Assembly: GCF_029961185.1 (NCBI RefSeq)
Contig: NZ_JASBQQ010000010.1
Location: 1-64,000 of the forward strand
Source: Albidovulum aestuarii
Lineage (GTDB): Bacteria > Pseudomonadota > Alphaproteobacteria > Rhodobacterales > Rhodobacteraceae
Length of the DNA: 64,000 nucleotides
Direction: 5' to 3'
Positions 44,783-63,703 of the stretch are shown one piece after another. The position numbers were made by a program, and so were the translations under genes. Positions within the stretch are counted from its first letter, which is position 1. Each line of letters starts with the position of its first letter. Below the pieces are notes generated by a model. It searched no databases and was not told the origin of the DNA. It saw only the letters and a program-made list of their open reading frames with translations.

Positions 44783-44853
44783 CGTGCCCTCCATCAGGAT
44801 GACGGAAGGGCTTAGCGAAACTTGGTTAATTCGCGGCTAGGGCAGCGTTAAGG

Positions 44854-46067: not shown

Positions 46068-47360
46068 TCAGCCCCGCCGACCCGCCTCCAAAGCGTCCTC
46101 GAAGGTCCGGAGCCCGGTACGCGGCGCCTGCACCAGCACCGCCATATTGCCCGGCTTGTGCTCGTTCCGGCGCATCTTCATATGCGCGGCCGGAATTTCA
46201 TCCCAGGGGAAGACCTCGGACATGCAGGGATCGAGACGGCGCTCCAGCATCAGCTTGTTCGCGGCCGAGGCCTGCGCGAGATGCGCGAAATGCGAGCCCT
46301 GGAGGCGCTTCTGATGCATCCACATGTAGCGCACGTCGAAGGTGCAGTTGAAACCCGAGGTACCGGCGCAGATCACGACCATGCCGCCCTTCTTGCAGAC
46401 CAGAGACGAGACCGGGAAGGTCGCCTCGCCGGGATGCTCAAAGACCATGTCAACATTGACGCCCTTGCCGGTGATGTCCCAGATCGCCTTGCCGAACTTG
46501 CGCGCCTCTTTCAGCCATGCGTTGTATTCGGGGCTGTTGACCTTGGGCAGTTGTCCCCAGCACTTGAAATCGTTGCGGTTGATCACGCCCTTGGCGCCCA
46601 GCCCCATGACGAAGTCGCGCTTGCTCTCGTCGCTGATCACCCCGATCGCGTTGCCGCCCGCCGTATTGATGAGCTGAATCGCGTAAGAGCCGAGACCGCC
46701 CGACGCGCCCCAGACCAGCACGTTCTGGCCCGGCTGAAGGTCATGCGGCGCGTGGCCGAAGAGCATCCGGTAGGCTGTGGCCAGCGTCAGCGTGTAGCAG
46801 GCGGATTCTTCCCAGGTCAGGTGCTTGGGACGCGGCATCAACTGCTGCGCCTGCACGCGGGTGAACTGCGAAAACGATCCGTCGCCGGTCTCATAGCCCC
46901 AGATCCGCTGGCTTGGCGAAAACATCGGGTCGCCGCCATTGCAGTGTTCGTCGTCGCCATCATCCTGGTTGCAGTGGATGACGACCTCGTCGCCGACCTT
47001 CCAGCGCTTGACCTTCTCGCCCACGGCCCAGACGATGCCCGAGGCATCGGACCCGGCGATGTGATAATCCTGCTTGTGCACATCGAAGGGGCTGATCGGC
47101 TCACCCCGGCTGGCCCAGACGCCGTTGTAGTTGACGCCCGCCGCCATCACCAGAACCAGCACCTCGTTGCTGTCCAGCTTCCAGGTATCGACGACCTCGA
47201 CCTGCATCGCGGTTTCGGGCTCGCCATGGCGCTCGCGCCGGATCGCCCAGGCATACATCTGCTTCGGCACATGGCCCAAAGGCGGCATCTCGCCGATCTC
47301 GTAGAGGTCTTTTTCGGGCGCGTCGTAGGGCGCGATTTCGGTTTGCGTATCCAAGGCCAT
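46068..47360 (-). CDS. ccrA: crotonyl-CoA carboxylase/reductase
   Basis: Reductively carboxylates crotonyl-CoA to (2S)-ethylmalonyl-CoA with NADPH and CO2, the key step of the ethylmalonyl-CoA pathway of acetyl-CoA assimilation. The 430-residue MDR-family protein has a GroES-like N-terminal domain and a Rossmann domain with VLVWGASGGLGSYAIQLINTAGGNAIGVIS. Ccr-specific segments include GVNYNGVWASRGEPISPFDVHKQDYHIAGSDASG and FEHPGEATFPVSSLVCKKGGMVVICAGT. The partner ecm is about 2.5 kb away on the other strand. Confidence 0.96.
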   Translation of the reverse strand: MALDTQTEIAPYDAPEKDLYEIGEMPPLGHVPKQMYAWAIRRERHGEPETAMQVEVVDTWKLDSNEVLVLVMAAGVNYNGVWASRGEPISPFDVHKQDYHIAGSDASGIVWAVGEKVKRWKVGDEVVIHCNQDDGDDEHCNGGDPMFSPSQRIWGYETGDGSFSQFTRVQAQQLMPRPKHLTWEESACYTLTLATAYRMLFGHAPHDLQPGQNVLVWGASGGLGSYAIQLINTAGGNAIGVISDESKRDFVMGLGAKGVINRNDFKCWGQLPKVNSPEYNAWLKEARKFGKAIWDITGKGVNVDMVFEHPGEATFPVSSLVCKKGGMVVICAGTSGFNCTFDVRYMWMHQKRLQGSHFAHLAQASAANKLMLERRLDPCMSEVFPWDEIPAAHMKMRRNEHKPGNMAVLVQAPRTGLRTFEDALEAGRRG

Positions 47361-47456
47361 CTACCTCTCCTGACATCTTCGCCGCATCGCAGAATCAACG
47401 CGGGCTCAAGGCATGGAATAGGATCGGCGCGGTAACATTGCAATAGGTTGCGGTAG

Positions 47457-48896
47457 TTATTTTGTAATTTTATGTCCCGCCGGATGACGAACGTTGCGTT
47501 TCGGCGGGATTTTCCCGGTTTTTGATGCCGCAGGTGCAGCAAGATGCTGCTCTACGGCGGCGGCATAGAACCCGATCAGCGCCCGGTCCTTCGGCGGCAC
47601 GGTGATCCGCCCGCCCTCGCGCCGCACGATCTTGCGCAAGGTCAGGATGTCCAGCGCCCGCTTGACCGCCTTGTCCACCGACCCGTCCGGCAGTTCAAGA
47701 TACGCACCCGCCGCGCCAAGGCGCTCCGCCAGCGCCTCCACCCGCTTGGTCAACGCATCCATCGGCAGATCCGTATCCTCGCCTATGGCGGCCGAAATCA
47801 GCGGCACCGGCAGGACCGAGACATTGCGGGCGATGCGCGCCATCATCTCGTCGGCCAGCTCGGCGGTCACATCCTCATGCGGAACGCGCAGGAACTCGGC
47901 CAGCGACAAAGGCGCGCCGAAACTGACCGAGGCCACGCCGAATTTCTCGAACCGCCCGCTCAGCACGCGGCGTACCTGCCGCCCGACGAATTTAAGGATC
48001 GACCAGAAAGAGGCGCGGAACCGCCGGACTCCCATCGCATGGGCCGCGACCAGAACCCGGTCCTCGATGATCCGGTCATAGGACAGCGAGACCGGCACGA
48101 AGACGACATCCCGCCCGCCCTCGCGGTAGCCATCGACGATATAGGACAGGATCCCAAGCTTCGGCGTGCCGACCCGGCCATCGAGGCTCAGCCCCCCTTC
48201 GGGAAAGATCGCCTGTGTCACGCCCTCTTCAGTGGCCATCTGTACATAACGCGCCAGCACCCGGCGATAGAGTTGGTTGCCGGACTTGCGCCGGATGAAA
48301 TAGGCCCCCGCCGAGCGGATCAGCCACGACAAAGGCCAGACCCGCGCCCATTCTCCAACCGCGTAGGACAGGGCAGAGCGGCTGGCGGCAAGATAGGTCA
48401 CCAGCACGTAATCCATGTTCGACCGGTGGTTCATGACGAAAACCACCGTGTCGCCCTTGTCGATCCCGGCAATCGCCTCCGCATCGAACTGCCCGACCCG
48501 GACGCGGTAGATCAGACGCGCCAGCCATTTCGCCGCCCGCGCAGCAAAGCCGAAATACACCGAAGCCGAAAAGCCCGGCACGATCTCGCGCGCATAGCGC
48601 CGCGCGCGTTCAAGATGCACGGTTTCGGGAATGCCCGTCTCGGCCGCCTCTGCCGCGATTGCCTCGGCCACTTTCGGGTCATGGGCCAGCCGGATGATCA
48701 TGTCGGGCCGCTTCATCAGCTTAAAGGGCTGGATCGGCCGTTCCAACCGCGTGTTCAGCTTGGCCACAACCCGCTCCATCCGGTGGCGAAAGAACCAGCG
48801 CACCGACGGAAACAGGAAATGCGATGCGAACGTCACCCCGGCGAAGACGAGGATCAGCACGAAAAGCCAAAGGGGCAGCGTCACCGGTTGCAGCAT
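47457..48896 (-). CDS. glycerol-3-phosphate/1-acylglycerol-3-phosphate acyltransferase-like protein
   Basis: A 479-residue inner-membrane-associated acyltransferase. One N-terminal membrane helix (about 7-27) is followed by the PlsC/PlsB-type core with the HX4D motif N-H-R-S-N-M-D (about 156-162) and the FPEGGLSLDGR motif (about 226-236). The length is larger than PlsC and resembles a PlsB-like short acyltransferase. Whether it acts first or second in phospholipid synthesis cannot be decided here. Confidence 0.85.
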   Translation of the reverse strand: MLQPVTLPLWLFVLILVFAGVTFASHFLFPSVRWFFRHRMERVVAKLNTRLERPIQPFKLMKRPDMIIRLAHDPKVAEAIAAEAAETGIPETVHLERARRYAREIVPGFSASVYFGFAARAAKWLARLIYRVRVGQFDAEAIAGIDKGDTVVFVMNHRSNMDYVLVTYLAASRSALSYAVGEWARVWPLSWLIRSAGAYFIRRKSGNQLYRRVLARYVQMATEEGVTQAIFPEGGLSLDGRVGTPKLGILSYIVDGYREGGRDVVFVPVSLSYDRIIEDRVLVAAHAMGVRRFRASFWSILKFVGRQVRRVLSGRFEKFGVASVSFGAPLSLAEFLRVPHEDVTAELADEMMARIARNVSVLPVPLISAAIGEDTDLPMDALTKRVEALAERLGAAGAYLELPDGSVDKAVKRALDILTLRKIVRREGGRITVPPKDRALIGFYAAAVEQHLAAPAASKTGKIPPKRNVRHPAGHKITK

Positions 48897-49064
48897 CGTG
48901 AGGAAAACTGGCAGGAAATCCGCGTCACGTAAATCGCGGACATCAGACCACGGGAAATCCGCAAAGTTTCACAGGGCCAGTGCAACCTTTGAGACTGTCC
49001 ATACCCGCTCAGTCCGCTACCATCTCCCTTTCAAAAAAGTAACAGCAACAGGGAGGCACTCGAT

Positions 49065-49691
49065 ATGACGATGCGCATCATTCTGGCCGCCGCGATGGCA
49101 CTCGGGGCAAGCACCGCAACCGCGCAGGATGCAGGGATGAGCTTCTTCATCACCAGCGAAAACCCCGGCACTGGCGGCAATTTTGGCGGGATCGAAGGTG
49201 CGGATGCTCATTGCGCCGCGCTTGCCGAGGCGGCGGGTGTCTCTGGCAAGTCATGGCACGCTTACCTCTCGACCAGCAGTGAGAATGCCCGCGACCGGAT
49301 CGGTGCCGGGCCGTGGATGAACGCCGCAGGCGTCACCATCGCCGAAAGCGTGGACCAGTTGCACAGCGCCGACAACAACCTGACCAAAGAAACCGGCCTG
49401 AATGAGAAGGGTGAGGTCGTGAACGGGCGCGGCGACAGCCCGAACCGCCACGATATCCTGACCGGGTCTCTGCCGGACGGCACAGTGGCCGAGGGCGCGA
49501 CTTGCGAGGATTGGACCTCGGATGCCGAGACCACCGCTGGCATGGTTGGCCATCACGACCGGATGGGCCTCGACGAATCGGACGCCGCGAAATCGTGGAA
49601 CTCCTCGCATTCCTCGCGCGGCGGATGCGGGCTGGAGGCCTTGCGCGGCACCGGTGGTGACGGGCTCCTGTACTGTTTCGCCTCGAACTGA
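49065..49691 (+). CDS. exported lectin-like protein (DUF1554/C-type-lectin-like fold)
   Basis: A 208-residue protein. A signal peptide ends near TATAQ (about residue 21). The mature part shows an early segment FFITSENPGTGGNFGGIEGADAHC and further Cys residues in EGATCED, RGGCGLEA and YCFASN, with conserved WMNAAGV, as seen in exported proteins commonly annotated lectin or DUF1554. It has no membrane anchor. The ligand is not known. It starts at 49065 with GGGAGG upstream. Confidence 0.75.
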   Translation: MTMRIILAAAMALGASTATAQDAGMSFFITSENPGTGGNFGGIEGADAHCAALAEAAGVSGKSWHAYLSTSSENARDRIGAGPWMNAAGVTIAESVDQLHSADNNLTKETGLNEKGEVVNGRGDSPNRHDILTGSLPDGTVAEGATCEDWTSDAETTAGMVGHHDRMGLDESDAAKSWNSSHSSRGGCGLEALRGTGGDGLLYCFASN

Positions 49692-49709
49692 CCGTTTCGA
49701 AAGCCTTGG

Positions 49710-49746
49710 TGCTGCGGTGCGGCTCTGAATTTTTTGCACCGCAGCA
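49710..49746 (+). promoter_or_regulatory. inverted repeat between the lectin-like gene and ecm
   Basis: Perfect 11-bp arms TGCTGCGGTGC (49710-49720) and GCACCGCAGCA (49736-49746) with a 15-nt loop containing a T-run. It could be a factor-binding dyad in the ecm leader or a terminator of the upstream gene. T-rich loop rather than tail argues against a simple terminator. Confidence 0.5.
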
Positions 49747-49814
49747 TCTGGACGCGCAACATTCTTCCGTCTAGGTTCGCCACCAAGGAATTATGTTGCC
49801 GCGAGGTTTTGCCA

Positions 49815-51785
49815 ATGACCGTCCAGAACGAGCGTGATCGCCCCTGGCTGTTCCGCACCTATGCGGGCCATTCGACGGCAGAAAAGTCGAACGCGCTCTA
49901 CCGCGCGAACCTCGCCAAGGGGCAGACAGGCTTGTCGGTCGCCTTCGACCTGCCGACCCAGACCGGCTATGACAGCGACCATGAGCTTGCCAAGGGCGAG
50001 GTCGGCAAGGTCGGTGTACCGGTCTGCCATCTCGGCGACATGCGGACCCTGTTCAAGGACATTCCCCTTGAGCAGATGAACACCTCGATGACGATCAACG
50101 CGACCGCGCCGTGGCTTCTGGCGCTCTACATCGCGGTGGCCGAGGAACAGGGGGCCGATGTCGCGGCCCTGCAAGGCACCGTGCAGAACGATCTGGTGAA
50201 GGAATACCTCAGCCGAGGCACCTATATCTGCCCGCCGAAACCCTCCCTGAAGATGATCACCGATGTCGCGGCCTATACGGCGGAACACCTGCCGAAATGG
50301 AACCCGATGAATGTCTGTTCCTATCATCTGCAAGAGGCAGGCGCGACACCGGAACAGGAACTGGCCTTCGCCTTGGCCACCGGTATCGCGGTTCTTGACG
50401 GCCTCAAGGGCAAGGTCCCGGCCGAAGGCTTCCCCGCCATGGTCGGCCGCATTTCCTTTTTCGTGAACGCCGGCATCCGCTTTGTCACCGAGCTTTGCAA
50501 GATGCGCGCCTTCACCGAGCTCTGGGACGAGATCTGCCTTGAACGCTACGGGATCGAGGAAGAAAAATACCGCCGCTTCCGCTACGGCGTGCAGGTGAAC
50601 TCCCTCGGCCTGACCGAACAACAGCCCGAAAACAACGTCTACCGCATCCTGCTGGAAATGCTCGCGGTGACGCTCTCCAAAAACGCCCGCGCCCGGGCAG
50701 TTCAGCTTCCCGCCTGGAACGAGGCCCTTGGTCTGCCCCGCCCGTGGGACCAGCAATGGTCGCTCAGGATGCAGCAGATCCTTGCCTATGAAACCGACCT
50801 TCTGGAATATGGCGACCTTTTCGACGGCAACCCGGCGATCACCGCCAAGGTCGAGGCGCTGAAGGAAGGCGCGCGGGACGAGCTGAAGACGCTCGACGCC
50901 ATGGGCGGCGCCATCGCCGCAATCGACTACATGAAGGGGCGGCTCGTAGAGTCCAACTCCGAGCGTATCGCCCGGATCGAGGCGGGCGAGACCACCGTCG
51001 TCGGCGTGAACAAGTGGACAGAGGCCGAGCCTTCGCCCCTGACCGCGGGCGACGGATCGATCCTGACCGTCGATCCGGCGGTGGAGGTCGATCAGGTCGC
51101 GCGCCTCAACGACTGGCGCGGGGCCCGCGATCAGGGCACAGTCGATGCCGCACTCGCCGATCTGCGGGCCGCTGCCTCGGCGGGCCAGAATGTCATGCCC
51201 GCCTCCGTCGCCTGCGCCAAGGCGGGTGTCACCACCGGCGAATGGGCGGGCGTCATGCGCCAGGTCCATGGCCAGTACCGGGGGCCGACCGGCGTGTCGA
51301 AAAACCCCTCAAACCGCACCGAAGGGCTCGACGATATCCGCGATGCGGTGGATCAGGTCTCCACCCGGCTTGGCCGTCGCCTGTCGTTCCTCATGGGCAA
51401 GCCCGGCCTTGACGGCCATTCCAACGGCGCCGAACAGATCGCCGCCCGCGCCCGCGACTGCGGGATGGAGATCAACTACGAAGGCATCCGCCTGACACCC
51501 TCCGAGATTGTCGCGGCAGCGGGAGAGGCGGACGCCCATGTCGTCGGCCTCTCGATCCTGTCGGGCAGCCACCTGCCCCTGATTGCCGAGGTGATGGAGC
51601 GGATGCGCGAGGCGGGCCTTGGCCACATCCCCGTCGTCGTCGGCGGCATCATCCCCGACGAAGACGCCGCAAGGCTGCGCGAAATGGGCGTCGCCCGTGT
51701 CTATACGCCAAAGGATTTCGAACTGAACCGGATCATGTTCGACATCGTGGCGCTCGCCGAACCAAAAGCTGTAGCGGCAGAGTAA
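49815..51785 (+). CDS. ecm: ethylmalonyl-CoA mutase
   Basis: Adenosylcobalamin-dependent isomerase that converts ethylmalonyl-CoA to methylsuccinyl-CoA in the ethylmalonyl-CoA pathway (also called meaA). The 656-residue protein has the mutase barrel domain (GLSVAFDLPTQTGYDSDH near 42-59, ATAPWLLALYIAVAEEQG) and the C-terminal B12-binding domain with the D-x-H-x2-G motif in GLDGHSNG near 530, then VVGLSILSGSH. The subtype (Ecm rather than methylmalonyl-CoA mutase) is inferred from the MeaA-like length and N-terminus together with linked ccr. The start at 49815 (MTVQNERD) fits. Confidence 0.95.
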   Translation: MTVQNERDRPWLFRTYAGHSTAEKSNALYRANLAKGQTGLSVAFDLPTQTGYDSDHELAKGEVGKVGVPVCHLGDMRTLFKDIPLEQMNTSMTINATAPWLLALYIAVAEEQGADVAALQGTVQNDLVKEYLSRGTYICPPKPSLKMITDVAAYTAEHLPKWNPMNVCSYHLQEAGATPEQELAFALATGIAVLDGLKGKVPAEGFPAMVGRISFFVNAGIRFVTELCKMRAFTELWDEICLERYGIEEEKYRRFRYGVQVNSLGLTEQQPENNVYRILLEMLAVTLSKNARARAVQLPAWNEALGLPRPWDQQWSLRMQQILAYETDLLEYGDLFDGNPAITAKVEALKEGARDELKTLDAMGGAIAAIDYMKGRLVESNSERIARIEAGETTVVGVNKWTEAEPSPLTAGDGSILTVDPAVEVDQVARLNDWRGARDQGTVDAALADLRAAASAGQNVMPASVACAKAGVTTGEWAGVMRQVHGQYRGPTGVSKNPSNRTEGLDDIRDAVDQVSTRLGRRLSFLMGKPGLDGHSNGAEQIAARARDCGMEINYEGIRLTPSEIVAAAGEADAHVVGLSILSGSHLPLIAEVMERMREAGLGHIPVVVGGIIPDEDAARLREMGVARVYTPKDFELNRIMFDIVALAEPKAVAAE

Positions 51786-51800
51786 CGAGAGGGACACGCG

Positions 51801-52286
51801 GTGAAGCCCCGGGTATTTGCGGATGCGAACGAATCCCTTCTGACCGCCTATGAGGAAGAGGTTTCGGGCGAGGCCTATTTCGCCGCGCTTGCCGAACAGC
51901 ATGACGGCCGCGCCAGCGAAGCGCTGATGCTGATCGCCGAAATGGAGGTCGTGACCGCGCGCCTGTTCCGGCCCGTGCTCGACGCGGCGGGGCTGCATCC
52001 GCGCAGCGCCGAAGAGCTTGTGCGCGAAGGGCGCGACGACGCCGAAGCGTTGCGCGGCAGCAGCTGGACCGAATTTCTGACCAGCATGCGGGACGGCTAC
52101 GACGCCTATGTGACGGAGTTCAAAGGGATCCGCGCCGCCGTCAATCCCGACTTCCGCCCCCATGCCGACCTTCTGATCGCGCATGAAGTCGCGATCATCG
52201 ACTTCGCCCGGGCCGAACTGGCAGGCGACGGGAACAGCCTGTCCTACCTGCACCGCTATCTGGAAGAGGCGCGGTCTTTCGCGTGA
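51801..52286 (+). CDS. ferritin-like helical protein of unknown function
   Basis: A 161-residue, all-helical acidic protein. Glu-rich positions in EEEVSGEAYF, LIAEMEVVTARLF and HEVAIIDFARAE resemble the Glu/His ligands of ferritin-like four-helix proteins, but I cannot prove metal binding. The start is GTG at 51801 with GAGAGGG upstream, 15 nt behind ecm, so it is probably cotranscribed with it. Confidence 0.65.
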   Translation: MKPRVFADANESLLTAYEEEVSGEAYFAALAEQHDGRASEALMLIAEMEVVTARLFRPVLDAAGLHPRSAEELVREGRDDAEALRGSSWTEFLTSMRDGYDAYVTEFKGIRAAVNPDFRPHADLLIAHEVAIIDFARAELAGDGNSLSYLHRYLEEARSFA

Positions 52287-52384
52287 CCTTCATTAGGGTC
52301 GGCCCGTCACCGCGCCCGACACGTTGCCATACGTTTTGCCGACAGTTTGCCGACGCTTCGCCGATCGCGGATTTCCCGGTCCGG

Positions 52385-53194
52385 TCACGGGCTTCTTCCC
52401 CCGGTCGTCGCTGTAACCTCGTCGGCGGCGGCCCGCACCATTTCGCCGATCTCTCCGGTTCGCTCCAGCGGCAGACGGAAGGCAGGGCCCGAGACCGACA
52501 GCCCCGCCACCGGCTCGCCATAAGCATTGAAGATCGGGGCAGCGACGCAGCGCATCCCTTCTGCCCGCTCCTCGTCATCCAGCGCATATCCCCGCGCGCG
52601 GGTTGCGGCAAGGTCGGCCAGCAGGTCCTCAACCTCGCCCACGGACCGTTCGGTAAAACGCGGCAAGCCATTCTTTGCAATGGATAAAATCCGCGCCTCT
52701 GGATACCAGGCCAGAAGCGCCTTGCCGATGCCCGAGACATGCATCGGCCCCAGCGTGCCGGGCGGGAAGAAGGCGCGGATCGTCTCATGCGTCTCGACCT
52801 GGCTCAGGAACAGGACCTGATCGCGCATCTCGACACCCAGATTGGCCGTCTCGCCGGTCGCCCGCATCAGCCGGTCCATCACCGGCCGCGCCCGCTCAGC
52901 CACCTTGGTCCGGCGCAGAAAGGCCGACCCCACCCGAAACGCCCCGCCCCCCACATGCCAAAGCTGCCCGGGCTCCTCCATCTCGGCGAAACCATGGGTC
53001 TGGAACGTGGTCAGCACCCGGTAAACGGTCGGCGCCGACTGCCCCGTCCGGCTGGCGAGTTCCGACAGCGTCAGCCCGCCCGCCTCGCTGACCGAGGTCA
53101 GGATCATCAGTGCGCGGTCAAGCGACTGGATCGTATTGTCGGCCGTCTTGTCATGGAAACTTTTCGGGCGGCCCCGGGGGCGGGATTCGGCCAT
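52385..53194 (-). CDS. bhcR: IclR-family regulator of the beta-hydroxyaspartate cycle
   Basis: A 269-residue regulator with an N-terminal winged HTH (IQSLDRALMILTSVSEAGGLTLSELASRTGQSAPTVYRVLTTF, about 24-65) and a GAF-like IclR effector domain. It is divergent from bhcABCD, the arrangement described for BhcR in Paracoccus denitrificans, where it responds to glyoxylate. Assignment rests on the cluster context. The start at 53194 (MAESRPRGR) is preferred, with AAAGGG upstream; the frame extends 14 codons further. Confidence 0.9.
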   Translation of the reverse strand: MAESRPRGRPKSFHDKTADNTIQSLDRALMILTSVSEAGGLTLSELASRTGQSAPTVYRVLTTFQTHGFAEMEEPGQLWHVGGGAFRVGSAFLRRTKVAERARPVMDRLMRATGETANLGVEMRDQVLFLSQVETHETIRAFFPPGTLGPMHVSGIGKALLAWYPEARILSIAKNGLPRFTERSVGEVEDLLADLAATRARGYALDDEERAEGMRCVAAPIFNAYGEPVAGLSVSGPAFRLPLERTGEIGEMVRAAADEVTATTGGRSP

Positions 53195-53368
53195 TCTGGG
53201 CCCTTTCTTTGCATGATCGAAAAACGATTTCGACACATGAAAAACAAATTTTTCTTATTTTTCAATACGGAAAGTATATTTTTCACATTGCGAAAAATGT
53301 TTTCGAAAAAATTGCGCTCCGAGACGGCAAGAGTCTAAATTTGCAGCATCCCTGCAAAGAGGCACGCC
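53195..53368. promoter_or_regulatory. bhcR-bhcA intergenic region with several dyads
   Basis: A strikingly AT-rich block. Candidate operator dyads: CGAAA-N5-TTTCG at 53218-53232; ATTTTTC-N7-GAAAAAT at 53278-53298; CGAAAA-ATG-TTTTCG at 53291-53305, which overlaps TTTTCGAAAA at 53300-53309; and TTTGCAG-N5-CTGCAAA at 53340-53358 just before bhcA. These sit between the divergent start codons and are the natural sites for BhcR. The bhcA ATG at 53369 is preceded by AGAGG. Confidence 0.7.
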
Positions 53369-55521: not shown

Positions 55522-55531
55522 GGAGAAGAAA

Positions 55532-56695
55532 ATGAACGCTCAGGACCGTTACGCAGATTTCGAAGTCGGCTACGACATTCCCGCCAAGCCCGGCATGGAT
55601 GAGGCCGATATCCAGACGCCCTGCCTGATCCTCGACCTCGACGCTTTGGAGCGCAATGTGAAGAAGATGGGCGACTATGCCAAGGCCCACGGGATGCGCC
55701 ACCGCAGCCACGGCAAGATGCACAAATCGGTCGATGTGCAGAAGCTTCAGGAAAGCCTCGGCGGCGCGATAGGTGTGTGTTGTCAGAAGGTTAGCGAGGC
55801 GGAAGTTTTTGTCCGCGGCGGCATCAAGGATGTGCTCGTCTCCAATCAGGTGCGCGATCCGGCCAAGATCGACCGGCTGGCGCGGCTGCCGAAACTGGGC
55901 TCCCGGATCATCGTCTGTGTCGACGATCTGGACAACGTGGCCGACCTGTCGGCGGCAGCTCAGAAACATGGCACCGAACTGGAGGTCTTTATCGAGATCG
56001 ACTGTGGCGCGGGGCGCTGCGGCGTGACAACGACGCAGGATGTGGTCGCCATCGCCAAGGCGGTCGATGCAGCTCCGGGGCTGAAGTTCACCGGCATTCA
56101 GGCCTATCAGGGCGCGATGCAGCACATGGACAAATACGAGGACCGCAAGGCGAAACTCGATACCGCCGTCGCCATGGTCAAGGATGCGGTTCAGGGGCTG
56201 AAGGCCAACGGGCTGGAACCGGAGCTGGTCTCCGGCGGTGGCACCGGCAGCTATTATTTTGAGTCGAATTCCGGCGTTTACAACGAACTTCAATGCGGTT
56301 CCTACGCCTTCATGGATGCCGATTACGGTCGCATCCTCGACAAGGATGGCAAGCGCATTGATCAGGGCGAATGGGAAAACGCGCTCTTCATCCTGACCAG
56401 CGTGATGAGCCATGCCAAGGCCGACAAGGCCATTGTGGATGCGGGTCTCAAAGCGCAGTCGGTCGATAGCGGCCTGCCCTTCGTCTATGGCCGGGATGAC
56501 GTGAAATACATCAAATGCTCGGACGAACATGGCGTGGTCGAGGACCCGAATGGGGCCCTGAAGGTCAATGACAAGCTGAAACTGGTGCCTGGCCATTGCG
56601 ACCCGACCTGCAATGTCCACGACTGGTACGTGGGCGTACGGAACGGCAAGGTCGAAACCGTCTGGCCGGTCTCGGCCCGTGGCAAGGCTTACTGA
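55532..56695 (+). CDS. bhcC: beta-hydroxyaspartate aldolase
   Basis: Condenses glycine and glyoxylate to (2R,3S)-beta-hydroxyaspartate. The 387-residue protein is a D-threonine-aldolase/alanine-racemase-type fold-III PLP enzyme. The PLP Lys is K62 in RSHGKMHKS, matching the RPHAKTHK site of D-threonine aldolases. The C-terminal metal-binding His/Cys region PGHCDPTCNVHDW is present. The start at 55532 has AAGGAGAAG upstream. A strong intrinsic terminator follows it. Confidence 0.93.
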   Translation: MNAQDRYADFEVGYDIPAKPGMDEADIQTPCLILDLDALERNVKKMGDYAKAHGMRHRSHGKMHKSVDVQKLQESLGGAIGVCCQKVSEAEVFVRGGIKDVLVSNQVRDPAKIDRLARLPKLGSRIIVCVDDLDNVADLSAAAQKHGTELEVFIEIDCGAGRCGVTTTQDVVAIAKAVDAAPGLKFTGIQAYQGAMQHMDKYEDRKAKLDTAVAMVKDAVQGLKANGLEPELVSGGGTGSYYFESNSGVYNELQCGSYAFMDADYGRILDKDGKRIDQGEWENALFILTSVMSHAKADKAIVDAGLKAQSVDSGLPFVYGRDDVKYIKCSDEHGVVEDPNGALKVNDKLKLVPGHCDPTCNVHDWYVGVRNGKVETVWPVSARGKAY

Positions 56696-56715
56696 GAAAA
56701 CCTCCCTGAGACTGT

Positions 56716-56741
56716 GGGCCGGGTACGCCCGGCCCTCTTTT
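56716..56741 (+). terminator. intrinsic terminator between bhcC and bhcD
   Basis: The stem GGGCCGGG (56716-56723) and CCCGGCCC (56728-56735) with loop TACG is followed by TCTTTT (56736-56741). This is a full rho-independent terminator in the middle of the operon, 21 nt behind the bhcC stop. Confidence 0.88.
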
Positions 56742-56772
56742 GTTACGACACTCTATGACTGAAAGGTGCGCC

Positions 56773-57732
56773 ATGCTCATCGTCCCCGAGGCCCTGATCG
56801 CCGGGCTCGTCACCGCCGAAGACGCCTTTGGCGCCATCGAGGCCTGCTTCGCCGCCATGGCGCGGGATGAGGCCTATAACTTCCCGGTCATCCGCGAGGC
56901 CTTGGGCGAGGGGCGGCAATACGGGTTCAAGTCGGGCCTTGACCGCGCGGGCGGGGTGATGGGGGTGAAGGCCGGGGGCTATTTCCCCGGCAATGCCGCG
57001 AAGGGTTTGATCAACCACCAGTCCTCGGTCTTCCTCTTCGATCCCGAGACCGGGCGGCCCACCGCGATGGTCGGCGGCAACCTTCTGACCGCTTTGCGCA
57101 CCGCCGCCGCCTCGGCCATTTCCATCGACCGGCTGGCGCGGACGGATGCGAAGGTACTGGGCATGGTCGGCGCCGGTCATCAGGCGCAGTTCCAGCTTCG
57201 CGCCGCCGCCAAGGTGCGGGAGTTCGAGAAGGTCATCGCCTGGAACTACCACCCGGACATGCTGCCGAAGCTCGGTGAGGTCGCCGCCGAACTCGGCCTG
57301 CCGTTCGAGGCGGTCACGCTCGACCGGATGACCGAGGCCGACGTGATCGTCACCATCACCTCCTCGCCCGCCGCATCGCTGATGTCCGCCCATGTCAGCC
57401 CCGGCACGCAACTGGCCTGTATGGGAACCGACACCAAGGGAAAGCAGGAGGTGGAACCCGCCCTCCTCGCCCGCGCCCGCCTCTTCACCGACGAAGTGGC
57501 CCAATCCGTCACCATCGGCGAGGCCCAGCACGCCGTCGCCGCCGGGCTGATCCGCGCCGAAGCCATCACCCCCATCGGCGCGGTTATCGCCGGTCTGGCT
57601 GAGGGGCGGCAGTCGGACAACCAGATCACCCTCTTCGACGGCACAGGCGTCGGCCTCCAAGACCTCGCCGTCGCCAGCACAGCCGTGCGCATCGCCGAAG
57701 AGAGGGGCCTTGCCATCAAGGTCGATGTCTGA
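56773..57732 (+). CDS. bhcD: iminosuccinate reductase
   Basis: Reduces iminosuccinate to aspartate with NAD(P)H, closing the beta-hydroxyaspartate cycle. The 319-residue protein belongs to the ornithine cyclodeaminase/mu-crystallin family: a Rossmann loop GMVGAGHQAQFQLRAA near 134-149 and a conserved-type MGVKAGGYFPGN region near residues 69-81. The chosen ATG at 56773 has GAAAGG upstream; ATG at 56755 and TTG at 56740 are in-frame alternatives. It sits behind a terminator, so it may need its own promoter or readthrough. Confidence 0.92.
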   Translation: MLIVPEALIAGLVTAEDAFGAIEACFAAMARDEAYNFPVIREALGEGRQYGFKSGLDRAGGVMGVKAGGYFPGNAAKGLINHQSSVFLFDPETGRPTAMVGGNLLTALRTAAASAISIDRLARTDAKVLGMVGAGHQAQFQLRAAAKVREFEKVIAWNYHPDMLPKLGEVAAELGLPFEAVTLDRMTEADVIVTITSSPAASLMSAHVSPGTQLACMGTDTKGKQEVEPALLARARLFTDEVAQSVTIGEAQHAVAAGLIRAEAITPIGAVIAGLAEGRQSDNQITLFDGTGVGLQDLAVASTAVRIAEERGLAIKVDV

Positions 57733-57830
57733 ACGCGGACACTGCCCCCGCGTATCGGGTACAAATTCGGGGTTTCGGACGGCGCGCCTTCGTGCTTTGA
57801 GAGCATAAAGCGGGCAGTCGGAGACCATGC

Positions 57831-58817
57831 ATGACGGTTCGGGTGGCAATCAACGGCTTTGGCCGGATCGGGCGGTCGATGCTGCGCGCGGCCCTGTCCG
57901 ACCCTGCCCATGCCGATATCGACATCGTTGCGGTGAACGACATCGCGCGGCCCGAAATGGCGGCCTATCTCTTTGAATATGACAGCACCTTCGGCCCATG
58001 GGCGGGCGAGGTGCAGCTGACCGATGGGGCCCTGACGGTCAACGGGCGGCACATCCGGCTGACCGGCACCCGCGACCTGTCGACGCTCGACCTTTCCGGC
58101 ATCGATATCGTCATGGAATGCACCGGGCTCGGCGGCGAACGCTCCTTCGCCGAGGCGGGGCTTAGGGCCGGTGCCGGGCGGGTGCTGGTTTCCGGGCCCT
58201 CGAAAACGGCGGATTTCACGCTCGTGATCGGCGCGAACGAGGAGCGTTTGTCCCCCGATCACCGCATCGTCTCGAACGCGTCCTGCACCACCAATGCGCT
58301 CGCGCCCCTCGCCCGGCTGATCGAGCGGCAATGGGGTGTGGAAACCGGCTGGATGACGACGATCCACTGCTACACCGGCAGCCAGCCCACGGTTGATGCG
58401 CCCGGGGCCGAGTTCGCCCGGAGCCGCGCGGCGGCTTTGTCGATGGTGCCGACGACGACCTCGGCCCAGCGGCTTCTCGATGTGGTCCTGCCCGAAATCG
58501 CGGGCCGGATCGAGGGCGCGGCGGTCCGGGTGCCGGTCGCCTCGGTCTCGGCGGTCGATCTTTCGGTGATGACGCGGGCAAAACCGGACCGCGCCGCCGT
58601 GAATGCCGCGCTGCAAGAGGCGGGCGGGGTGATCGGCTGGACCGAAAAGCCGCTCGTCTCGTCGGATCTTCGGGCCCGGCCCGAAAGCATCGTCATGGCG
58701 CTGCCCGAAACCCATGTGACTGCGGGCGGGCTGATCAGGGTCTTCGGCTGGTACGACAACGAATGGGGCTTTTCCAACCGCATGCTCGATGCTGCGCGGC
58801 TGATGGTCAGCCTTTAA
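57831..58817 (+). CDS. glyceraldehyde-3-phosphate dehydrogenase-type enzyme (paralogue)
   Basis: A 328-residue NAD(P)-dependent dehydrogenase. It has the Rossmann loop NGFGRIGR at 8-15, the catalytic Cys152 in SNASCTTN, and His179 in TIHCYTG. C-terminal segments WYDNEWGFSNRML are typical of GAPDH/erythrose-4-phosphate dehydrogenase. It lies 98 nt behind bhcD on the same strand; its place beside C2-metabolism genes is unusual. The main GAPDH of the cell is probably elsewhere, and erythrose-4-phosphate dehydrogenase is an option. Confidence 0.87.
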   Translation: MTVRVAINGFGRIGRSMLRAALSDPAHADIDIVAVNDIARPEMAAYLFEYDSTFGPWAGEVQLTDGALTVNGRHIRLTGTRDLSTLDLSGIDIVMECTGLGGERSFAEAGLRAGAGRVLVSGPSKTADFTLVIGANEERLSPDHRIVSNASCTTNALAPLARLIERQWGVETGWMTTIHCYTGSQPTVDAPGAEFARSRAAALSMVPTTTSAQRLLDVVLPEIAGRIEGAAVRVPVASVSAVDLSVMTRAKPDRAAVNAALQEAGGVIGWTEKPLVSSDLRARPESIVMALPETHVTAGGLIRVFGWYDNEWGFSNRMLDAARLMVSL

Positions 58818-58909
58818 CGTTCCGCCGCAAAGGATTTCTCGGCCAGCCCGGTGCGGTTGCGCTAGGATGTCGGCCAAACCCGATGAGCAGAGCCTGAAAG
58901 GTGCCGCAA

Positions 58910-59449
58910 GTGACACCCCCGACCGCCACGATCGACCTCCGCATCACGCGGATCGAGTCGCTGTTCGAAACACTCGATCCCTCGCCCTTCCACGAACGGG
59001 ACCTTGACCAGAAAGCGTTCGACTACATCCTCGGCTGGGCGCGGGAATATCCGTCCGACCACCGTTTCCGCCTGCGCCTGCATCTGCCTGCGTCAGAGGC
59101 CGAGCGGGCGAATTCGGTCGATGTGGCAGCAGCGATCCGCGCGAATTTCGGTTATTGGATCGGATCGGTCCAGCGCGACCGACGCGAACAGTTCAGGCTT
59201 GGGCGGCGTTATGTCGCCATCGGCCTCAGCGTGCTTGCCCTCTGCCTTCTGGCAAAGCAGTCGCTGCCATCGCTGATGGGTGACACACCGCTGGCACGGT
59301 TCCTGGGCGAGGGTCTGTCGATCCTCGGCTGGGTCGCGAACTGGAAGCCGGCCGAGACGTTTCTCTATGAATGGTGGCCGCTCTATCGGCGTCTGGCGCT
59401 GCTGCGTCGGCTTGAGGCGGCCGAAGTGGAGATCGTGGCGACGGCCTAG
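58910..59449 (+). CDS. conserved hypothetical membrane protein
   Basis: A 179-residue protein whose residues 1-85 are soluble (TRIESLFETLDPSPFHERDLDQKAFDYILGWAREYPSDHRF). One membrane helix follows (about 104-118, YVAIGLSVLALCLLA), then GEGLSILGWVANWKPAETFLYEWWP, which could form a re-entrant segment. I do not recognise a family with certainty. GTG at 58910 is chosen because GAAAGG lies 8 nt before it; GTG at 58901 is in frame and overlaps that site. Confidence 0.7.
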   Translation: MTPPTATIDLRITRIESLFETLDPSPFHERDLDQKAFDYILGWAREYPSDHRFRLRLHLPASEAERANSVDVAAAIRANFGYWIGSVQRDRREQFRLGRRYVAIGLSVLALCLLAKQSLPSLMGDTPLARFLGEGLSILGWVANWKPAETFLYEWWPLYRRLALLRRLEAAEVEIVATA

Positions 59450-59494
59450 ATCCGCCGCCGCCACGCCAGATTGCCCTGCGGACCTGCCTTTGGA

Positions 59495-60841
59495 TCACTC
59501 CTCGATCGTCTCGGGCAGAACGAGGTTCAGGATGATCGCGATGATCGCGGTCGGCAGCAGGCCAGAGGTTATCAGGATCTGCGCCGTTTTCGGCAGGTGC
59601 TGCAACGCACCGGGTTCAAGCTGCAACCCGAAGCCGATTGAGAGCGCGATGGCAAAGATCACCATGTTGCGGCGATTCCAGACGACATCGGCCAGCATGT
59701 TGACCCCCGCCGCCGCAACCATACCGAACATCACGATCACCCCGCCGCCGAGCACATTGATCGGCACGGTCTGGATCACTGCACCGATCTTCGGGATCAG
59801 CCCGCAGACAATGAGGAAGAGCGCGCCGATGGTGACGACATGGCGGCTCATCAATCCCGTCATCGCGATCAGGCCGACATTCTGGCTGAAGGAGGTGTTC
59901 GGCAATCCGCCAAAGACACCCGCCACCGCCGTGCCAAGACCATCGGCAAAGGTCGCCCCCGCGATTTCCTTGTCGGTCGCCTCACGTCCCGCGCCGCCCT
60001 TGGTAATGCCCGACGTGTCGCCCACGGTCTCGATGGCCGAGACGACCGCCATCAGGCACATGCCGATGATGATCGCGCCATTGATCTCGAACCCCCATTT
60101 GAAGGGCAAAGGGGGTGCGAAGAGCGCCGCGCCGCCAATACGGCCGAAATTCACCTGCCCCATCATCGCCGCGACGACATAGCCCGCGACGATGCCGATC
60201 AGGACAGCAGCCACGGCCATGAAGCCGCGGGTGAAGAACTTCAGCGCCAAGGTCACGACGATCACCACGAGCGCCGGAAACCACATCGCGAGCGAGCCGT
60301 ATTCCGGCTTGCCGATCAGCGGAACGCCCCCGGCGGCGTATTGAATGCCGACCTTGATCAGCGCGAGCCCGATCATCAGGACGATGAGCCCGGTGACAAG
60401 CGGCGGCAGCGCATAGCGGATGCGGCCGATGACGAAGCCAAGGCAGAAATGAAAAAGCCCGCCGATGACCACCCCGGTCATCAGCCCGGCCAGCCCCGCC
60501 GTGCCAAGCCCAGCGACAGCCGGGATCATGATCGGCACGAAAGCAAAGCTCGTCCCCTGCACGATCGGCAGCCTTGCGCCGACCGGCCCCATGCCGATGG
60601 TCTGAAAGAGCGTGGCGATGCCGGCAAAGAGCATCGACATCTGGATCATGTAAAGCATCGGCGTCAGGTCATCCGAGCCGAAACCCACCCCCGCCGCGCC
60701 CGCGACGATGATCGCGGGTGTCACGTTGGAGACGAACATCGCCAGCACATGCTGGATGCCAAGCGGCACGGCCTTGGCCAAAGGCGGTGTATAGTCGGGA
60801 TCGCGGAGTTGCTCCGGCGTCCCGATGGAAACATCGGTCAT
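59495..60841 (-). CDS. nucleobase:cation symporter (NCS2), xanthine/urate type
   Basis: A 448-residue inner-membrane transporter with about 14 hydrophobic segments. The NCS2 signature stretch PNTSFSQNVGLIAMTG has the Gln-Asn pair that in characterised members marks xanthine/urate transporters rather than uracil transporters. FQTIGMGPVGARLPIVQGTSFAFVP is the family motif before it. Its position beside ureide-catabolic genes supports purine-derived substrates. Substrate is inferred, not proven. Confidence 0.88.
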   Translation of the reverse strand: MTDVSIGTPEQLRDPDYTPPLAKAVPLGIQHVLAMFVSNVTPAIIVAGAAGVGFGSDDLTPMLYMIQMSMLFAGIATLFQTIGMGPVGARLPIVQGTSFAFVPIMIPAVAGLGTAGLAGLMTGVVIGGLFHFCLGFVIGRIRYALPPLVTGLIVLMIGLALIKVGIQYAAGGVPLIGKPEYGSLAMWFPALVVIVVTLALKFFTRGFMAVAAVLIGIVAGYVVAAMMGQVNFGRIGGAALFAPPLPFKWGFEINGAIIIGMCLMAVVSAIETVGDTSGITKGGAGREATDKEIAGATFADGLGTAVAGVFGGLPNTSFSQNVGLIAMTGLMSRHVVTIGALFLIVCGLIPKIGAVIQTVPINVLGGGVIVMFGMVAAAGVNMLADVVWNRRNMVIFAIALSIGFGLQLEPGALQHLPKTAQILITSGLLPTAIIAIILNLVLPETIEE

Positions 60842-60888
60842 GGGTCTCTCCCTCTTTTTCGCGCGTTTCGGGCCGTTTACCGGCCTCG

Positions 60889-61383
60889 TCAGATATTGGA
60901 CGCCACGAGAAAGGGCGTCGGGAACCAGTGTTCCTGAAGATTGGGTGTATCGCCGATCCGGTCGATGACCGCGAAAAGGCCCGGTGCGTTAAGCGGTGTC
61001 AGCACGCCATGCCAGGTATTGCGGTGAAGGTTGATCCCCTGTCCCGGCGCGGTCAGAAAGGCGCGCGGGCGGCCCGGTACGCCATCCTCGTCTTCAGCAA
61101 CAATCACCAGAAACGGGTCCATCGACATCGGGATGAAGGCCTGCGAGCCCTCGGGATGCCGTTCGACCATGTCGAGCCGGTAGGGCAAAGCGCGCGGTTC
61201 GGCCTTGAAGATCGAGACCCCCGCCCGTCCGCCGGGCCCGAAATCCAGCCGCGCCCGGTCATGATACCGCCCGCAGAGCCCCTGATTGATGATCCGGTCA
61301 GGGTCGCCCGACGCATCAAGAACATCGCCGAACGGGGCGAAGGCGGTTGGCGTCAGCTTTTCGGTCAGGATCGGCTCGGTCAT
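60889..61383 (-). CDS. allA: ureidoglycolate lyase
   Basis: Splits ureidoglycolate to glyoxylate and urea, ending purine ring catabolism. The 164-residue cupin-like protein has TPTAFAPFGDV, the central HPEGSQAFIPMS, and LHRNTWHGVLTPL near the C-terminus, the family landmarks. The ATG at 61383 is the family start; the frame extends upstream through the repeat copy C. It is cotranscribed or closely linked with the ureidoglycine aminohydrolase gene across 71 nt. Confidence 0.9.
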   Translation of the reverse strand: MTEPILTEKLTPTAFAPFGDVLDASGDPDRIINQGLCGRYHDRARLDFGPGGRAGVSIFKAEPRALPYRLDMVERHPEGSQAFIPMSMDPFLVIVAEDEDGVPGRPRAFLTAPGQGINLHRNTWHGVLTPLNAPGLFAVIDRIGDTPNLQEHWFPTPFLVASNI

Positions 61384-61400
61384 CGGTTTCCTTGGCTCAG

Positions 61401-61452
61401 GCCGGGGGCGCTGCCCCCGGACCCCCGGAGTATTTCCGGACAGAAAGTGAAG
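61401..61452 (-). repeat. intergenic repeat, copy C, with GC-rich hairpin
   Basis: Core at 61422-61451 reads on the minus strand as TTCACTTTCTGTCCGG then AAATACTCCGGGGG, and matches copies A and B. A hairpin GCCGGGGGC-GCT-GCCCCCGG-type stem lies at 61401-61420. On the minus strand it begins directly behind the TGA of the gene ending at 61455, the same position as copy A behind accD. Confidence 0.78.
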
Positions 61453-61454
61453 GA

Positions 61455-62291
61455 TCAGCGCCCGAACGCGCCGGGTCCTCTGAGTTTCGCGTGGCGGTTG
61501 ACATCCTTGTAAAGGAGATAGCGGAACGGACCGGGGCCTGCGGCGTAGCAGGCCTGCGGGCAATAGGCGCGGAGCCACATGAAATCGCCCGCCTCCACCT
61601 CCACCCAGTCGCGGTTGAGCTTGTAGACGGCCTTGCCCTCTAAAACATACAGCCCGTGTTCCATGACATGGGTTTCCTCGAACGGGATCACGCCGCCCGG
61701 CTGGAAGGTGACAATATTGACATGCATGTCATGGGCGATGTCGTCGGGATCGGCAAAGCGGGTGGTCGCCCAGCGCCCGCCGGTATCGGGCATGGCCACC
61801 GGTTTCACGTCCTTGTCCGAAGTCACGAAGGCCTTGGGCGCAGCAATGCCCGGCGCATATTCATAGAGCTTGCGGACCCAGTGGAACCGCGCCGGATGAT
61901 CGGTGCCGTTATGCAGCTTCCAGTCGCAGCCGGGCGGGATATAGGCGTAGCCGCCGGTGCCGAGGTCATGCCAGGTGCCGTCGAGCGAGAGCCGCACCTC
62001 GCCATCGGTGACGAAGATCACGCCTTGGGCGACCGGATCGGGTTCGGGCAAGTCCGACCCGCCGCCGGGGCCGACCTCCATCACATACTGGCTGAAGGTT
62101 TCAGCAAAGCCTGACATCGGGCGGGCGATGAGCCAGAGCCGGGTGTTCTTCCAGCCGGGCAAGGCGCTGGTGACAATGTCGGAAAAGCATCCCTTGGGGA
62201 TCACGCAATAGGCCTCGGTAAAGACCGCGCGGCCGGTCATGAGCTGCGTCTGCGGCGGCAGGCCGCCTTCGGGGGCGTAATAGGGGCTCAT
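61455..62291 (-). CDS. (S)-ureidoglycine aminohydrolase
   Basis: Releases ammonia from ureidoglycine to give ureidoglycolate, upstream of the lyase. The 278-residue bicupin has cupin motifs in both halves: N-terminal GVIFVTDGEVRLSLDGTWHDLGTGGYAYIPPG and C-terminal VIPFEETHVMEHGLYVLEGKAVYKLNRDWVEVEAGDFMWLRAYCPQACYAAG, where E and H residues fit Mn binding. The start at 62291 (MSPYYAPEGG) overlaps the PuuE-UraD stop by 4 nt, so this is a tight operon. The symbol is left open because the naming varies (UGHY, AllE). Confidence 0.88.
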   Translation of the reverse strand: MSPYYAPEGGLPPQTQLMTGRAVFTEAYCVIPKGCFSDIVTSALPGWKNTRLWLIARPMSGFAETFSQYVMEVGPGGGSDLPEPDPVAQGVIFVTDGEVRLSLDGTWHDLGTGGYAYIPPGCDWKLHNGTDHPARFHWVRKLYEYAPGIAAPKAFVTSDKDVKPVAMPDTGGRWATTRFADPDDIAHDMHVNIVTFQPGGVIPFEETHVMEHGLYVLEGKAVYKLNRDWVEVEAGDFMWLRAYCPQACYAAGPGPFRYLLYKDVNRHAKLRGPGAFGR

Positions 62292-63703
62292 CGTGGCAGC
62301 ATGTCCTTCAGACGCCATTCGGCGATGCGTTCGACCTGACGGCAAGCCTCGTCGAACTCGGTTTCATTGTCCTGTTCCAGCCTGCGGCGGAAGGCATCGA
62401 GGATCGAGGCCTTGGTATTGTCCCGGACCGCGATGATGAAGGGGAAGCCGTGGCGCGTCGTGTAGGCGTTGTTGAGGTCGGTGAACTCGTTCCGTTCCGC
62501 GTCGGTCAGCGCGTCGAGGCCGACGCTGGCCTGTTCGGCCGTGGACTCTGCCGTCAGCCGTTTGGCGGCGGCGAGCTTGCCCGCAAGATCGGGATGCGCC
62601 GTCAGCACCCCCAGCCGTTCGGCGCGGGAGGCCGTGCGGAACATGCGGGCGAGCGCGTTATGGAGGCCGGTCGCCGTGTCGTGCGCGGGACCCAGTTCGA
62701 GCGCGAAGGCGCGTTCGGCGATCCAGGGGGAATGTTCAAAGATGCCGCCGAAGCGGGCGACGAATGTGGATTTGTCCATCCGGCTCGGCCGTTCGTACCG
62801 CTGCGGCGGATGGGTTTTCGCCCAGTGGCGGGCGATGTCGATGCGGCGGGGGAACCATACTCCCGCGTGCCCCTTGGCATAGTCGAGGAAGCGTTTCAGC
62901 CCGGCGATCTTGCCAGGCCGCCCAATCAGGCGGCAATGAAGGCCGACGCTCATCATCTTCGCAGCCCCGGCCTCACCCTCGGCATAGAGCGTATCGAAGG
63001 CGTCCTTGAGGTACTGGAAAAACTGCTCGCCCGTAATATAGCCCGGCGCGGTGGCAAACCGCATGTCATTGGCCTCAAGCGTATAGGGAATGACCAACTG
63101 ATCGCGCTCGCCAACCTCCAGCCAATAGGGCAGGTCGTCGTCATAGGTGTCGGAAATCCAGTCGAGTCCCTGCTCGGCGGTGAGGCGCACGGTGTTGACC
63201 GAACAGCGCCCGGTATACCAGCCGGTCGGGCGGCTGCCCGTCACCTCGGTATGCAACCGGATCGCCTCGGCGATCTGGCGGCGTTCCTCGTCTTCCGCCA
63301 TGTCCCGGTGTTCGACCCATTTCAACCCGTGGGACGCAATCTCCCACCCCGCGGATTTCATCGCCGCGACCTGTTCGGGCGAACGGGCGAGCGCGGTGGC
63401 GACGCCGTAGATCGTGACCGGGACATCCATGCCGGTGAAGAGACGGTGAAGCCGCCAGAACCCGGCGCGGGCGCCGTATTCGTAAATCGATTCCATGTTC
63501 CAGTGGCGCTGGCCCGACCATTGGGCGGCACCGGGAATATCCGACAGGAACGCCTCTGACGCCGCATCGCCATGCAGGATGCAGTTCTCGCCGCCCTCCT
63601 CATAGTTCAGCACGAGCGAGACGGCGATTTTCGCACCGCCGGGCCATTTGGCGTCAGGAGGGGTCGGCCCGTGGCCGGACATATCGCGAGGGTAGCGGTT
63701 CAT
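62288..63703 (-). CDS. puuE-uraD: allantoinase (PuuE) fused to OHCU decarboxylase (UraD)
   Basis: A 471-residue two-domain protein. Residues 1-305 are a polysaccharide-deacetylase-fold allantoinase of the PuuE type (WPGGAKIAVSLVLNYEEGGENC, SHGLKWVEHRDM, HCRLIGRPGKIAGLKRFLDY, and WFPRRIDIARHW). The remaining ~165 residues are UraD-like, with HPDLAGKLA near 370 and ALTDAERNEFTDLNNAYTTRHGFPFIIAVR. The fusion couples OHCU decarboxylation to S-allantoin with its hydrolysis to allantoate. The chosen start at 63703 (MNRYPRDM) fits PuuE; an in-frame start lies 5 codons upstream. Confidence 0.9.
   Translation of the reverse strand: MNRYPRDMSGHGPTPPDAKWPGGAKIAVSLVLNYEEGGENCILHGDAASEAFLSDIPGAAQWSGQRHWNMESIYEYGARAGFWRLHRLFTGMDVPVTIYGVATALARSPEQVAAMKSAGWEIASHGLKWVEHRDMAEDEERRQIAEAIRLHTEVTGSRPTGWYTGRCSVNTVRLTAEQGLDWISDTYDDDLPYWLEVGERDQLVIPYTLEANDMRFATAPGYITGEQFFQYLKDAFDTLYAEGEAGAAKMMSVGLHCRLIGRPGKIAGLKRFLDYAKGHAGVWFPRRIDIARHWAKTHPPQRYERPSRMDKSTFVARFGGIFEHSPWIAERAFALELGPAHDTATGLHNALARMFRTASRAERLGVLTAHPDLAGKLAAAKRLTAESTAEQASVGLDALTDAERNEFTDLNNAYTTRHGFPFIIAVRDNTKASILDAFRRRLEQDNETEFDEACRQVERIAEWRLKDMLPR

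Follow-up and report, generated by a model that had tools for sequence, protein, structure and literature searches.

Gene content of the locus

We analyzed a 64,000-nucleotide stretch of the Albidovulum aestuarii genome (the window), namely, bases 1 to 64000 of a 138,882-base contig (closest named relative by BhcA, at 98%, Defluviimonas sp. WL0050). In the span from 46068 (ccr end) to 63703 (puuE-uraD start codon), ccr-ecm genes of the ethylmalonyl-CoA pathway, genes of the beta-hydroxyaspartate cycle (bhc), and genes for the breakdown of purine ureides lie within 18 kb, as described in an earlier note that read them as a single glyoxylate hub. Comparison with related genomes shows that this three-way hub fails: bhc and ureide genes belong together, whereas ccr-ecm is a neighbor by rearrangement. 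Genes were called with NCBIfam and Pfam profiles against curated cut-offs (given as bits/cut-off), and start codons were refined afterwards. Family models found ccr, ecm, bhcR, bhcABCD, allA, the ureidoglycine aminohydrolase gene, and puuE-uraD where the earlier note had placed them; the acyltransferase, DUF1554 protein, orf161, gapX, orf182, xanthine-type permease, and hiuH had gone unnamed there. The bhc and ureide parts consist of the following features.

52385..53194, minus strand: bhcR, IclR-type regulator, ATG at 53194 (NF045644, 394/350)
53218..53232, plus strand: palindrome CGAAAAACGATTTCG, candidate BhcR site, one of 2 window matches
53291..53305, plus strand: palindrome CGAAAAATGTTTTCG, candidate BhcR site upstream of bhcA, one of 2 window matches
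53369..54556, plus strand: bhcA, L-aspartate:glyoxylate aminotransferase (NF045640, 756/650)
54568..55521, plus strand: bhcB, beta-hydroxyaspartate dehydratase (NF045641, 581/550)
55532..56695, plus strand: bhcC, 3-hydroxy-D-aspartate aldolase (NF045642, 782/690)
56755..57732, plus strand: bhcD, iminosuccinate reductase (NF045643, 542/500)
59495..60841, minus strand: xanthine-type permease of the nucleobase cation symporter-2 (NCS2) family (TIGR03173, 409 bits, just below 414; TIGR00801, 316/292)
60889..61383, minus strand: allA, glyoxylate-releasing ureidoglycolate lyase (NF002952, 298/260)
61455..62291, minus strand: ughY, (S)-ureidoglycine aminohydrolase (NF008373, 527/445; NF040771, the bifunctional allantoicase form, 490/350)
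62288..63703, minus strand: puuE-uraD fusion, allantoinase plus 2-oxo-4-hydroxy-4-carboxy-5-ureidoimidazoline (OHCU) decarboxylase (TIGR03212, 522/425; TIGR03164, 210/96)
63850..64000 and on to contig base 64206, plus strand: hiuH, hydroxyisourate hydrolase, an open reading frame (ORF) whose homologue at locus L118 scores 125.5/87 with TIGR02962

BhcA, BhcB, BhcC, BhcD, and BhcR all scored above their curated cut-offs, with bhcR divergent, and the proteins leading from hydroxyisourate to glyoxylate, i.e., HiuH (via its homologue), UraD, PuuE, the ureidoglycine aminohydrolase, and AllA, are encoded together. The five genes, the divergent bhcR, and the palindromic site in the promoter gap resemble bhcRABCD of Paracoccus denitrificans as presented in PMC11323563; the window differs in that gapX and the ureide genes come after bhcABCD.

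Linkage of bhc and ureide genes across the family

We compared a family sample of 198 genomes (197 genera) and a genus sample of 22 genomes, in which BhcA exceeded its curated cut-off in 83 and 17 genomes, respectively, the window genome being counted. Ccr and PuuE are each above cut-off in 180 of the 198 family genomes, so that their bare presence is uninformative. Seventeen window proteins were searched against 99 bhcA neighborhoods with flanks of up to ~9.4 kb per side (83 from the family sample, in 82 genomes of which one contributes two, and 16 from the genus sample, all outside the window), and allA, ughY, or puuE-uraD at >40% identity was scored as a ureide gene; named bhcA loci were the best 80 of 582. 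A ureide gene lay within ~9.4 kb of bhcA at 29/83 family, 9/16 genus, and 51/80 named places. These counts are lower bounds, because in genome G205 the ureide genes stand just past the flank limit. For genome-wide distances, ccr and puuE were taken from 150 places each among the matches listed, and pair counts were set against a model of one random 3.75-Mb chromosome that ignores kinship and contig breaks. bhcA and puuE were at most 12 kb apart in 21 of the 66 genomes with both genes among the matches listed (~0.4 expected). The proximity of bhc and ureide genes therefore exceeds chance, whereas that of ccr to either does not. Thus, the synteny comparison proposed in the earlier note recovered one recurrent linkage, bhc-ureide, and left ccr at chance level with both partners.

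That this closeness reflects inherited gene order devoid of functional meaning is unlikely. A quick BhcA tree of 100 rows (39 linked, 50 unlinked, and 11 not assessable and hence excluded) required 21 parsimony changes in linkage, compared with a mean of 29.3 in 500 shuffles, none of which was as low; linked rows are thus clustered beyond the shuffles, and the pattern is partly inherited. Against inheritance as the whole explanation, the genes occur in at least three orders, and eight of the changes are forced by well-supported branches, although for some of the rows taken to be unlinked, as for G205, the ureide genes may start shortly beyond the flank limit. Order A is the window arrangement; order B, found in many roseobacters, runs ughY, bhcR/bhcABCD, permease, allA, puuE-uraD, and hiuH; and order C (L035, Ruegeria pomeroyi SZCCDBG043) runs puuE-uraD, allA, ughY, bhcR, and bhcABCD. 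Paracoccus xiamenensis (L014) has only allA near bhc.

The palindrome in the promoter gap is specific to bhc. Its pattern, YGAAANNNNNTTTCR, has two matches in the window, both at bhcR/bhcA, where 0.23 would be expected. It is present in 59 of 93 bhcR/bhcA gaps (0.1 expected upon base shuffling), and 87 of its 94 matches across the 99 loci fall within two 250-base bins at the bhcA start. P. denitrificans BhcR is reported in PMC11323563 to be a glyoxylate-responsive activator of bhc, and a palindrome 5′ of bhcA is its potential site.

Taken together, the core of the locus is likely a module that converts purines via glyoxylate to oxaloacetate, composed of the bhc and ureide genes, with ccr-ecm as a separate unit. 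The permease would import a purine, and HiuH, UraD, PuuE, the aminohydrolase, and AllA would take hydroxyisourate to glyoxylate. BhcABCD would then turn two glyoxylate molecules into one oxaloacetate with recycling of the amino group, which is the established biochemistry of the beta-hydroxyaspartate cycle. Glyoxylate would switch bhcABCD on via BhcR, probably together with gapX behind it, and the ureide operon would be under different control. The ccr-ecm genes would serve separately in acetyl-CoA assimilation, the right end of this unit having come to abut bhcR in the lineage shared by the window species and its sister. The suggestion of the earlier note that purine-derived glyoxylate enters the beta-hydroxyaspartate cycle is consistent with the recurrent linkage in family genomes, named loci, and genome-wide bhcA-puuE distances. 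One known way into glyoxylate assimilation, via glyoxylate carboligase, was sought as well, and the enzyme exceeded its cut-off in 0/198 family genomes, in a search that detected the E. coli positive control and did not extend to malate synthase.

Several observations weigh against this module. No ureide gene was in reach at 54 of the 83 family places (45 with enough flank and 9 with flanks too short), and a deep 16-row BhcA clade showed linkage in none of its 15 judged rows, on a tree whose support falls below 80 for 49 of the 97 inner branches. Genome G010, from the same genus, carries allA, ughY, puuE-uraD, hiuH, and gapX with BhcA above cut-off absent, so some other glyoxylate route must serve there. 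No urate oxidase was found among the window ORFs scanned. Finally, YGAAANNNNNTTTCR occurs in 0/25 puuE/hiuH gaps, which average only 37 bases because the hiuH ORF is extended, so shared control is not visible. BhcR was accordingly discarded as a common regulator of the ureide operon, the palindrome not having been found in these gaps, measured short; a tie between bhc and ureide genes via glyoxylate as the inducer is more likely than one via a common operator.

Coupling of ureide breakdown to a glyoxylate-assimilating route reportedly has counterparts in the E. coli allantoin/glyoxylate regulon (AllR, gcl) and in PA1498-PA1502 of Pseudomonas aeruginosa, said to be an allantoin-inducible glyoxylate pathway. 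The likeness is in this coupling; those routes yield glycerate or pyruvate, whereas the sink here would be the beta-hydroxyaspartate cycle, and glyoxylate carboligase did not exceed its cut-off anywhere in the family sample. Work on the beta-hydroxyaspartate cycle has treated it as a route for glycolate. That bhc repeatedly sits among ureide genes suggests that, in a large aquatic family, purines are a second natural supply of glyoxylate to the cycle. We found no description of bhc beside ureide genes in the literature, where subscription journals were mostly uncovered and an earlier description is possible. The available part of PMC11323563 names purines and allantoin as glyoxylate sources, with no mention there of adjacent ureide genes, and classes AllR, like BhcR, as an IclR-family regulator.

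Some loci had unusual content. Phaeobacter sp. J2-8 (L088) has two puuE-uraD and two hiuH matches beside bhc and gapX. Genome G055 has two BhcA genes above cut-off (L113 and L128), each with ughY upstream, one beside the permease, allA, and puuE-uraD, and the other beside gapX. A typical Rhodobacteraceae bhc locus also occurs in a record (L085 and L119) labeled Enemella evansiae TN21-6, which by that name would be an actinobacterium; the label looks wrong. In the window's own contig, deoC, an aldehyde dehydrogenase gene, and ATP-binding cassette (ABC) transporter genes lie past hiuH (L210, contig bases 64001-84000) and may extend a nucleoside-use region. A further purine gene, for AMP nucleosidase (window 26485-28071, minus strand; 667 bits, cut-off 365), is at least 18 kb from the cluster.

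The ccr-ecm unit as a neighbor

The left part of the span contains the following features.

46068..47360, minus strand: ccr, crotonyl-CoA carboxylase/reductase, probably a neighbor and not a module member (TIGR01751, 623 bits, cut-off 379)
47457..48896, minus strand: acyltransferase of the ccr-ecm unit (PF01553, PF19277)
49065..49691, plus strand: DUF1554 protein inside the ccr-ecm unit (PF07588, 31.0 bits, cut-off 27.5)
49734..51785, plus strand: ecm, probable ethylmalonyl-CoA mutase (PF01642, PF02310)
51801..52286, plus strand: orf161, right end of the ccr-ecm unit, without family match

Ccr, with its score above cut-off, is as expected of the ethylmalonyl-CoA pathway. NCBIfam has no model that names Ecm; the genome encodes two CoA mutases, of which this one diverges more (TIGR00641, 443 bits versus 879 for the one on contig C12), and its translation likely starts 3′ of the TTG at position 49734, the first Met being residue 28. 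No match to the glyoxylate-releasing lyase or to other genes of the pathway was obtained among 20 further window ORFs, a scan that left some window ORFs and the rest of the genome unsearched. At other ccr loci of the genus, ecm accompanies ccr in 16/17 and the acyltransferase in 15/17, and orf161 homologues lie 3′ of ecm in 4/17. Hence, ccr-ecm is a self-contained unit in this genus.

The arrangement with bhc is rare. At ~9.4 kb, ccr was near bhcA at 0/83 family, 1/16 genus, and 1/80 named places, and the single true ccr-ecm neighbor among the 99 other bhcA neighborhoods was L199, from a sister species (named locus L011). Weak ccr matches in L130 and L145 (22-26% identity) were set aside as paralogues. 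Among the matches listed, ccr and bhcA were at most 12 kb apart in 1/67 genomes (the window itself) and at most 60 kb apart in 2/67 (2.1 expected); ccr and puuE, in 1/115 (G114; the window pair is 16.7 kb apart) and 5/115 (3.7 expected); and ccr and gapX, in 1/64 (the window) and 2 (2.0 expected). The notion that ccr-ecm is a functional part of a hub is thus not supported: besides the window, only one sister species has it next to bhc, and its family-wide distances to bhcA and puuE equal chance. The earlier note had allowed that the hub would be coincidental if this gene order arose by chance in this genome only, which, bar one sister species, describes ccr-ecm and does not hold for bhc-ureide. 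L233 (G114:C115), a short contig with ccr 4 kb from puuE-uraD and with allA and hiuH, is the sole other close ccr-ureide pair among the matches listed.

A single selected island pooling acetate- and purine-derived glyoxylate is improbable; all genes inside 18 kb, the 4-kb ccr-puuE distance in G114, and pairs elsewhere in the order of the window (ccr-bhcA at 49 kb in the same-genus G216, also in the same orientation; ccr-puuE at 42 kb in G010) speak for it, as do the P. denitrificans tags Pden_3873/3875 (ccr/ecm) and Pden_3922/3921 (bhcR/bhcA) in PMC10370305 and PMC11323563, and the chance-level counts above speak against it, as does G205, which has ABC transporter genes after orf161 and carries its bhc and ureide genes on a different contig. 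Nor did we retain a looser, regional closeness of ccr and bhc, suggested by the P. denitrificans locus tags and by distances of 49-51 kb in G216 and G191, since its count equals chance. The ccr-ecm locus Pden_3873/Pden_3875 is similar to that of the window, with Ccr above cut-off and ecm one gene off; it differs in that the bhc junction found here is unusual, observed in two species only. This orf161/bhcR junction measures 98 bases. In the contig of the window, the ABC transporter genes that come after orf161 in G205 are located 12 kb beyond puuE, and G216 has 49 kb between the two blocks; the simplest account of the junction is therefore a derived join in the lineage of the window species and its sister, which may have arisen by insertion, deletion, or rearrangement alike.

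gapX, a third GAPDH-family gene

Between bhcD and the permease lie two further genes.

57831..58817, plus strand: gapX, third gene of the glyceraldehyde-3-phosphate dehydrogenase (GAPDH) family (TIGR01534, 332 bits, below the 367 cut-off)
58901..59449, plus strand: orf182, without family match; its only other occurrence at the loci searched is in the sister species

Two canonical GAPDHs are encoded in tandem elsewhere in the genome. Besides missing the type I GAPDH cut-off, gapX scored 277 bits against 531 with the erythrose-4-phosphate dehydrogenase (Epd) model TIGR01532 and has PTTTSA where Epd has PVDTKL. It shares 42% identity with E. coli Epd and 41% with GapA. In a comparison set of 55 copies (>40% identity, 85% coverage), the catalytic Cys and His motifs are retained in 55/55, and Asp follows the conserved Asn, which we take to be the nicotinamide adenine dinucleotide (NAD) site of GAPDH, in 98%. 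All 55 copies also have Ser instead of Asp or Thr in YTGxQ and Ser instead of Gly in PTSTG, the latter a change not seen in Epd, and a new DLRxRPES stretch has its Arg residues conserved at 100% and 98%. gapX is thus like type I GAPDH and E. coli Epd in protein family and catalytic motifs, and differs from both in its own invariant signature and its purine/bhc context.

gapX adjoins bhc and purine genes independently. It lies at most 12 kb from puuE in 25/70 genomes among the matches listed and at most 12 kb from bhcA in 26/45 (~0.3-0.5 expected in each case; the gapX distance list comprises 82 places in 81 genomes, with a threshold of 52% identity and 341 bits). Of the 25 puuE-near copies, 11 are in genomes without BhcA above cut-off and 3 more in genomes with bhc elsewhere; these 11 rule out gapX as a bhc-only component. 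Conversely, 14 of the 26 bhcA-near copies have no puuE within 25 kb among the matches listed; protein searches recovered puuE in 3 of them (G088, G135, and G145) and ughY in G002, leaving 10 with no ureide gene in reach. Neither bhcA nor puuE is near gapX in 41 genomes among the matches listed. Eighteen of these loci were fetched. In six (L253, L257, and L261-L264), gapX is accompanied by purine genes of another kind, namely, hiuH, allA, ughY, or genes resembling xanthine dehydrogenase, and L253 also has a split bhcA below cut-off; the remaining 12 have none. Across the 198 genomes, gapX and BhcA show a modest tendency to occur together (45 with both, 36 with gapX alone, 38 with BhcA alone, and 79 with neither; Fisher P 0.0013, kinship ignored). 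In a class-wide sample, gapX was found in 3/240 genomes (E 1e-101), all three from the same family and the window's own among them.

Judged by scores and motifs, neither Epd nor an ordinary GAPDH appears to fit gapX. An ordinary gluconeogenic GAPDH, or an Epd raising the supply of pyridoxal 5′-phosphate (PLP) for BhcA, BhcB, and BhcC, nevertheless comes close to being an even possibility. The retained Cys and His motifs and the Asp after the presumed NAD-site Asn favor such an activity, and three fetched copies (L257, L265, and L267) lie near gcvP, whose product is a PLP enzyme. The near-equal distance to Epd and GapA, the Ser in PTSTG, and the presence of two canonical GAPDHs elsewhere argue against it. 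More tentatively, gapX might have the GAPDH fold but act on a new substrate, e.g., by oxidizing a carboxylated aldehyde near glyoxylate, within the purine/glyoxylate metabolism of this family, and purine-bhc-gapX might form an undescribed catabolic module; the motif changes around the active-site stretches in all 55 copies and the separate ties of gapX to puuE and to bhc speak for this. No description of such a GAPDH was found in a literature search that mostly left subscription journals uncovered, and an earlier one is possible. gapX represents an uncharacterized GAPDH subfamily with a consistent genomic context.

Two features elsewhere in the window are RNA predictions. An ARAGORN tRNA-Arg (44351-44435, minus strand) falls inside a genus-conserved ORF (44150-44794) and is probably false, as Rfam gave no tRNA there at gathering score. 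A thiamine pyrophosphate (TPP) riboswitch (64.1 bits; 19582-19689, minus strand) precedes the thiamine transporter genes thiB and thiP.

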